Assembly: GCA_937899995.1 (NCBI GenBank)
Contig: CALCCK010000060.1
Span: 1 to 36,845 of the forward strand
DNA from: an uncultured Gammaproteobacteria bacterium
Lineage (GTDB): Bacteria; Pseudomonadota; Gammaproteobacteria; PS1; Pseudothioglobaceae
Direction: 5' to 3'
Length of the DNA: 36,845 bases
Part shown: piece by piece, positions 33,455-36,845 of the stretch
Layout: each line of letters starts with the position of its first letter
Numbering within the stretch: the stretch's first letter is position 1
Notes under the pieces: generated by a model
Told to the model about the DNA's origin: nothing
The model's database searches: none
Seen by the model: only the letters and a program-made list of their open reading frames with translations
Translations under genes and position numbers: made by a program

Positions 33455-34609
33455 ATGAGTGTACCTATTCTGGTTGAGTTTGGTGAGGTTGAGGCGTTAT
33501 TTTTCGTCATATTTTGTGTTTCTATTGTTTTTGGTGCAGTAGCACGTAAGACTGATTTTTGCCCTCTAGGCGGTATTGCAGATGTTGTCCATAGCGGTAA
33601 CACTGGTCGCTTATCAATGTATTTCTTTGCCATTGCTGTTGCTATTTTTGGCGTCACTATATTTGAAGCATTAGAAATTATTAGTGCAGATAGTACACGT
33701 CCTCCATATCGCATGAGTCAGTTTCGTTGGCCAGCTTATTTAGTCGGTGGTGCATTTTTCGGTATTGGTATGACTTTGTGTCGTGGCTGTGGCATGAAAA
33801 GTATTCTCAATCTAGGTGGTGGCAACTTAAAAACTATCGTTGCAATTTTAGGTATGGGTAGTGCAGCAGTGTTGATGTTGTATGTTGAAGGATTTTTCAA
33901 CGATTATTTCTTGTCTTGGGTTTTACCTATCTCACCTAATTTAGACGATTATGGTTTTGAAATGCAAGATCTAGGTACAATCTTTGGCAGATTTATAGGG
34001 GTTGAAGTTTTCTCAATGCGTATTATTATTGGGCTGGTGTTATCGTTATCAATCATGAGTTTGGTTTTTAAAAGCAAAGACTTTATTGCTAGACGTGATA
34101 ATTGGATTGGTGGCTTTATGATTGGTGCGTTGATTGTGAGTGCCTTTTACATCTCTGGTGGACCAATAGGTGAGTTAGCTAATGAAGCCTCTAATTTTAG
34201 TGATAGCCCTCAGTATGGCATGGGTACACAATCATATACCTTTATCCGTCCAATGGGTGATTTGCTTTATATTGCTTCAAATCCTGAGTGGTATATTTTA
34301 ACCTTCGGACTGGTGGCTTTTTTGGGTGTGGGCACAGGTTCAGTGTTGATTTCTATTTTGACTAGACGCTTTAAAATTGTTTGGTTTAATTCTGCTGGTG
34401 AGGCGCTACGTTATGCTGTTGGTGGTCTTATGGTCGGTATTGGCGGTATTTTAGGTATGGGTTGTACATTAGGTCAAGGTATTGCCGGTACATCTACTTT
34501 GTCATTAGGTTCATTTGTAGATTTATTTGCACTTATGCTCGGTGCTTATATTGGTATACGTATGCAAAAACAATTCATGAATGATCATGAAGTGCCAAGC
34601 GCTGATTAG
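33455..34609 (+). CDS. YeeE/YedE-family (TsuA-like) sulfur-compound transporter
   Basis: YeeE/YedE (DUF395) transporters take up thiosulfate or related sulfur compounds through conserved cysteines in the membrane. The 384-residue protein has many membrane segments and the family's cysteine motifs: FCPLGG (first), LCRGCGMKS (second) and MGCTLGQG (third, near the C-terminus). All three cysteine regions are intact. In the sulfur context a thiosulfate or sulfane-sulfur importer is likely, but substrate is not shown. A TATAAT at 33413-33418 lies 37 bases upstream, with ATGACA 19 bases before it as a poor -35. The ribosome-binding site is GAGGAG. Confidence 0.85.
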   Translation: MSVPILVEFGEVEALFFVIFCVSIVFGAVARKTDFCPLGGIADVVHSGNTGRLSMYFFAIAVAIFGVTIFEALEIISADSTRPPYRMSQFRWPAYLVGGAFFGIGMTLCRGCGMKSILNLGGGNLKTIVAILGMGSAAVLMLYVEGFFNDYFLSWVLPISPNLDDYGFEMQDLGTIFGRFIGVEVFSMRIIIGLVLSLSIMSLVFKSKDFIARRDNWIGGFMIGALIVSAFYISGGPIGELANEASNFSDSPQYGMGTQSYTFIRPMGDLLYIASNPEWYILTFGLVAFLGVGTGSVLISILTRRFKIVWFNSAGEALRYAVGGLMVGIGGILGMGCTLGQGIAGTSTLSLGSFVDLFALMLGAYIGIRMQKQFMNDHEVPSAD

Positions 34610-34627
34610 CTGTTTTATCTAGGCGTA

Positions 34628-34656
34628 AAAAAAGGCGGCTAGTGCACGCCTTTTTT
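34628..34656 (+). terminator. bidirectional terminator between transporter and hppA
   Basis: AAAAAAGGCG pairs with CGCCTTTTTT (34628-34637 with 34647-34656). Inside, GC/GC extends the stem with one bulged A. It serves both convergent genes. Confidence 0.85.
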
Positions 34657-34672
34657 ATTACTTTTTAATTAA

Positions 34673-36688
34673 CTACCCTAGTACAGGGGTACCTAATAAA
34701 GGAATAATCATGATTGCCACGATGTTGATAATCTTGATTAACGGGTTGATCGCAGGACCAGCCGTATCTTTATATGGGTCACCTACAGTATCACCAGTTA
34801 TTGCTGCCTTGTGAGCATCAGAACCTTTACCACCAAAGTTACCATCTTCGATATATTTCTTAGCGTTATCCCATGCACCACCACCAGTAGTCATTGATAT
34901 AGCCAGGAAGATACCCGTTGTAATAGAGCCAATCAATAAGCCACCTAGAGCTTCAGCGCCTAGTAACAAGCCAACGGCTACTGGGAATAGAATTGGTAGA
35001 GTAGAAGGCAAGATCATTTCTTTAATCGCTGACTTAGTTAGCATATCAACGGCTTTAGAATAGTCAGGCTTTTGTGTGTAATCCATAATGCCTGGCATCT
35101 CTCTAAACTGACGACGTACTTCTTCAACAATATCACCTGCTGCACGACCAACTGCTTCCATCGCCATCGCGCCAAATAAGTAAGGCACTAAGCCACCTAA
35201 GAACAAGCCGATAATAACCTTATGGTTTGATAAATCAAATGTAATGTCCTTAAATTGTTCCATGGTATGTAACTCGTTAGTAAAGTCAGCAAACAATACC
35301 AATGCTGCTAAACCTGCAGAACCAATTGCATAACCTTTAGTTACCGCTTTAGTTGTATTACCTACTGCATCTAAAGGGTCAGTAATGTTACGGATCTCTT
35401 CTGGTAAGTTTGCCATTTCAGCAATACCACCGGCATTGTCTGTGATTGGACCGTAAGCATCCAAAGCTACAATAACACCTGTCATTGACAACATTGCCGT
35501 TGCAGAAATTGCAATACCATATATGCCACCTAATGCATATGCACCCCAAATACTAGCACAAACGGCTAATACCGGTAATGCTGTAGATTTCATACTTAAG
35601 CCGATACCAGCAATAACGTTAGTACCGTCACCTGTTAATGAAGCTTCAGCAACATGCTGAACCGGCTTGCGTTCAGTTGAAGTGTAGTATTCAGTAACCA
35701 CAACCATCCACGCAGTTAGCGCTAAACCAATGAGTGATGCGTAGAATAAATCCATACCCATGTTCATATCGATAGTGACAAAATAGAAAGCAACTGCAGC
35801 CAATACAGCAGAAACAATTAAGCCTTTGTATAAAGCGCCCATAATTGAGCCACCATCAGACACTTTAACAAAGAATGTACCGATGATTGAAGCGATGATA
35901 GATACTGCGCCTAATGCTAGTGGATAAAGAATCGCATCGTTGCCCATACCTAGTACACCAGCCAACATCATTGTTGCAATGATGGTTACTGCGTAGGTCT
36001 CAAACAAGTCAGCTGCCATACCTGCACAGTCACCAACGTTGTCACCAACGTTGTCAGCAATTACTGCAGGGTTGCGCGGATCATCTTCTGGAATGCCAGC
36101 CTCAATCTTACCAACAATATCAGCACCAACATCAGCGCCTTTAGTAAAGATACCACCACCTAAACGAGCGAAGATTGAAATAAGTGAGCCACCAAATGCC
36201 AAGCCAATCAATGCGTGTAACGCCTCTTTCTGTTCTACGCCATTGGCTTCCATTCCAGCATAAAAACCAGCAACACCTAGTAGCGCCAAACCAACCACTA
36301 ACATACCAGTAACTGCACCACCTCTAAAAGCAACTTGGAAAGCGGCGTTCATGCCATTCTTAGCAGCTTCCGCTGTGCGAGAGTTAGATTTAACCGATAC
36401 GTTCATACCAATATAACCCGTTAAACCTGATAACACAGCACCAATTAAGAAGCCAATACCAACAGTCATTCCTAAGAAGTAAGTGATCACAGCTAACAAC
36501 ACAGCACCAACTATACCGATAGTTGCATATTGACGATTAAGATAGGCTTTGGCGCCTTCTGCAATCGCATCTGAAATCTCTTTCATTTTGTCACTACCTG
36601 GTGATTGTTTGTAAATCCAGGTCATTGTGTATAAGCTGTATAAGATAGCAATAATTGAAGACCCGATGGCCATAGCTAGTATATCCAT
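34673..36688 (-). CDS. hppA: K+-independent H+-translocating membrane pyrophosphatase
   Basis: This pump couples PPi hydrolysis (or synthesis) to proton movement across the membrane. The 671-residue protein has about 16 membrane segments, the PPi-site blocks [20 protein letters not shown] and [19 protein letters not shown], and the C-terminal [14 protein letters not shown] block. The K+ determinant reads [10 protein letters not shown] with K447 and T450, which is the K+-independent class; known Na+ pumps are K+-dependent, so this one should move H+. The start at 36688 lies four bases from the adapter junction, so the promoter, ribosome-binding site and a possible longer N-terminus are not visible. 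It is convergent with the transporter gene. Confidence 0.95.
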
Positions 36689-36692
36689 TTAC

Positions 36693-36845
36693 AGATCGGA
36701 AGAGCACACGTCTGAACTCCAGTCACAAGCCTATCTCGTATGCCGTCTTCTGCTCGAAAAAAAAAACCCCCCCCCCACCCCCACCCACCCCCCCCCCTTA
36801 CCCACCCACTACTACCCTCTACCAACACACACGTCTCTTCTACCC
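36693..36845. other. Illumina TruSeq adapter plus poly-A/poly-C read noise (not genomic)
   Basis: AGATCGGAAGAGC starts at 36693 and continues as the TruSeq index-adapter sequence to 36726, followed by a six-base index (AAGCCT, 36727-36732), the P7 end (36733-36754, up to TGCT), ten As (36757-36766) and then low-quality C-rich sequence to the end. The final two bases of the P7 end differ from the standard. No gene or native sequence should be called here; real sequence ends at about 36692. Confidence 0.97.

Follow-up and report, generated by a model that had tools for sequence, protein, structure and literature searches.

Sequencing adapter and read noise at the right end of a Pseudothioglobaceae contig upstream of hppA and at most readable contig ends of the same assembly

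Introduction

Adapter contamination at the ends of contigs is a known problem of published genomes. Moeller et al. 2024 (PMC11536531) described MGnify genomes in which adapter was concentrated at contig ends, contigs were broken, and contigs could be merged after trimming. The layout of the Illumina TruSeq LT-type index adapter, GATCGGAAGAGCACACGTCTGAACTCCAGTCAC[INDEX]ATCTCGTATGCCGTCTTCTGCTTG, has been printed in PMC10237388.

Here, we analysed the right end of a stretch of 36,845 nucleotides (the window), which represents the whole contig C60 of an assembly from an uncultured gammaproteobacterium of the Pseudothioglobaceae. The assembly comprises 78 contigs with 1.24 Mb and is rated 99% complete and 2% contaminated. 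As in the MGnify reference genomes (PMC11536531), contig ends carry AGATCGGAAGAG in forward orientation and contig starts carry its reverse complement, the index- or universal-specific part of the adapter comes next, and some contigs merge on trimming. In contrast to the Paenibacillus lactis example in that study, where approximately 10 bases follow the 12-mer, the tails are longer here and include index, P7 end, A-run and noise, with a median of 142 bases from the adapter start to the contig end. Furthermore, the presence of adapter on 78% of the readable ends sets this assembly apart from the MGnify cases (PMC11536531). Overall, it is a heavy but ordinary case of the known contig-end contamination.

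Results

Layout of the contig end

The last 153 bases of C60 (36693-36845) consist of adapter and read noise. Between 36693 and 36756, 63 of the 64 bases are identical to the TruSeq index adapter with index AAGCCT and the P7 end. The features at this end are as follows:

34673-36688, minus strand: hppA, membrane H+-pyrophosphatase, complete coding sequence (PF03030, E 3e-271), leader cut off by the artefact
36693-36726, plus strand: constant part of the TruSeq index adapter before the index, AGATCGGAAGAGCACACGTCTGAACTCCAGTCAC, which is A followed by GATCGGAAGAGCACACGTCTGAACTCCAGTCAC (layout in PMC10237388)
36727-36732, plus strand: sample index AAGCCT
36733-36756, plus strand: P7 end ATCTCGTATGCCGTCTTCTGCTTG, read here as ATCTCGTATGCCGTCTTCTGCTCG with a read error at 36755 (C for T)
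36757-36766, plus strand: A-run (A10) after the end of the library molecule
36767-36845, plus strand: C-rich, G-poor base-calling noise

The junction between genomic sequence and adapter lies at 36692/36693, where the first adapter A can equally well be a genomic or an A-tail base. Like the TruSeq LT-type index adapter (PMC10237388), the window carries the constant parts, a 6-base index position and the P7 end; it differs from it by the one base error at 36755. The index is counted as six bases, since the printed layout (PMC10237388) assigns the AT behind it to the adapter. The 89-base tail after the P7 end contains 52 C, 25 A, 11 T and 1 G. Hence, all elements named for these 153 bases in a preliminary description, i.e. 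adapter, index, P7 end, poly-A and a C-rich tail, could be located, and the hppA start codon (36686-36688, minus strand) indeed sits four bases inside the junction.

Recurrence across the assembly

We surveyed 700 bases from both ends of all 78 contigs; 16 short contigs read as N, which left 124 readable ends. Adapter was found at 97 of them, always facing outward: 60 ends carry the index adapter, 36 the reverse complement of the universal adapter (PMC10237388), and one (C23) only the first 12 bases. The index AAGCCT is present at 59 of the 60 index-adapter ends, and the remaining one reads AACCCT, which differs in one base. Chance can be excluded, because the whole assembly contains the exact adapter 13-mer in 44 forward and 47 reverse copies, compared to 0 for a reversed-pattern control, and even for a 12-mer only approximately 0.15 occurrences are expected on both strands of 1.24 Mb.

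Every adapter junction is different and the genomic sequences at the junctions are unrelated. The tails beyond the A-run are mutually unrelated noise, several of them C-rich like that of C60 (C17, C55, C69, C62, C36 and C50). Over all index-adapter ends, the A-run has a median of 11, and the tails that follow it are composed of 38% A, 36% C, 18% T and 8% G. GC content hardly dips at the junctions, with 38% over the final 100 bases vs 39% further in.

Some other ends showed a more complex structure. One end of C74 (C74:4922-5621) bears two adapter copies 86 bases apart, namely a universal adapter, an A-run and a second partial adapter. At the end of C73 (C73:9397-10096), the universal adapter at C73:9458 is followed by an A-run, noise and then several hundred GC-rich bases unlike the rest of this contig; this end is a chimera, joined via adapter. 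On C71, the right end (C71:11491-12190) shifts sharply from an AT-rich to a GC-rich stretch that reads as an IS3-type transposase, which is likely a chimera and possibly a recent insertion.

Related genomes and other records

The preliminary description had named the same sequence in independent assemblies as the observation that would speak against an artefact. The adapter 13-mer was not found in 56 related genomes and the adapter 33-mer not in 397 other genomes of the phylum; the related genomes carry genomic sequence where C60 carries adapter. The exact combination of adapter, AAGCCT and P7 end had no match in viral contigs. Remnants of the same adapter are present in GenBank records of phages (e.g. 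PP582185.1, LC768500.1), in several cases at or near the record end, but these genomes are unrelated to the one studied here.

Contig ends after trimming

Several contig ends free of adapter share exactly 127 bases with another end (C6/C13, C61/C74, C2/C21, C60/C14, C15/C55 and C43/C64), which suggests a de Bruijn graph assembler at k=127 whose forks would leave such shared ends. One of them is the left end of the window, where positions 1-127 are identical to C14:1-127 and represent a portion of tsf (EF-Ts) on the minus strand. Since the tsf reading frame is continued by C14 only, this left end is interpreted as a k=127 graph fork; the join at 127/128 of the window may be chimeric, and tsf is divided between C14 and, probably, the right end of C17.

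Trimming of the 97 adapter ends reveals 12 pairs with exact overlaps of 20-95 bases, all shorter than 127. Neither the untrimmed ends nor five controls with shifted trim points gave any overlap. For the trimmed end of C60, no exact overlap of at least 6 bases to any other readable end was found.

The missing bases upstream of hppA

The hppA product (671 aa, PF03030) has relatives in named records that are mostly gammaproteobacterial. The search for hppA upstream sequence in related assemblies, as proposed earlier, revealed a conserved protein of approximately 386 aa encoded directly upstream on the same strand, for which no Pfam match was found (L131:3661-4821 in a relative, C2:279-1433 here). 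The latter is its counterpart in the present assembly with 90% identity. The left end of C2 bears the universal adapter, with genomic sequence from C2:156 onward; farther along follow adenylate kinase (adk) and a phosphofructokinase-like gene, both named from sequence without family search. Alignment of six relatives across both trimmed ends gave a gap between C2 and C60 of 42 or 43 bases. In the relatives, a ribosome-binding site of the AAGGAG type lies within these bases; C2 itself carries CTATAAT as a probable -10 box. Hence, the earlier statement that the 5' region of hppA is missing holds for the approximately 43 bases of the leader including the ribosome-binding site, but the coding sequence is intact, and the upstream gene as well as the probable -10 box are present on C2.

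On its other side, hppA adjoins a convergent YeeE/YedE-type sulphur transport gene (PF04143; both genes within 33455-36688 of the window). Together with the conserved gene, adk and the phosphofructokinase-like gene on C2, hppA would fit a pyrophosphate-linked energy cluster.

Discussion

It is virtually certain that 36693-36845 is adapter read-through that was assembled as the tip of C60. A stretch that is present approximately 97 times in a genome could also represent a true repeat of the chromosome, or a mobile element, that resembles the adapter by chance. However, the copies are situated at contig ends and point outward with a different junction each time, the tails past the A-run are dissimilar, and the stretch agrees with the adapter as printed (PMC10237388), including a fixed index, and is entirely absent from the relatives. 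We therefore rejected this explanation, which is extremely improbable.

Alternatively, the break in the assembly could have been caused here by the adapter itself, in which case plain trimming would rejoin C60. In favour of this, 12 other pairs of adapter ends overlap after trimming. In the case of C60 it is unlikely, because its trimmed end lacks an overlap to any readable end and the relatives place the missing bases between C60 and C2; trimming alone would thus not close this gap. The earlier suggestion that the assembly may have stopped artificially at the junction is supported, with the refinement that the stop is best explained as a coverage and k-mer dead end.

The assembly of a short-insert read that ran into adapter, as initially assumed, is supported by the adapter at most contig ends and in no relative. 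According to our model, the end of a short library fragment would have lain four bases before the hppA start codon, and the read would have passed through this fragment into the index adapter with AAGCCT, then into A's beyond the end of the molecule and finally into noise. A literature search on poly-A after adapter read-through found nothing. The reads were presumably untrimmed or incompletely adapter-trimmed. If coverage was thin, no 127-mer would have spanned the spot, and a de Bruijn assembler, with k=127 as suggested by the shared ends, would have had no genomic continuation; the adapter-containing path of the short-insert read, as the sole remaining extension, may then have been kept as a dead-end contig tip. 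The genome would resume approximately 43 bases further on with the conserved gene, adk and the phosphofructokinase-like gene of C2.

The last 153 bases do not represent a biological feature, and no biological novelty remains. With high confidence we conclude that an assembly with such completeness and contamination ratings can still bear adapter on most of its contig ends, because completeness scores do not search for adapter. The importance of the finding is one of data hygiene, since approximately 100 tips of a species-representative genome carry up to approximately 200 bases of adapter and noise. Such tips create false open reading frames (e.g. 36627-36845, plus strand), yield spurious cross-matches to phage records and conceal joins, as seen for at least 12 contig pairs. 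For practical use, C60 should be trimmed from 36693, and C2 and C60 can be treated as a join that is scaffoldable by synteny.
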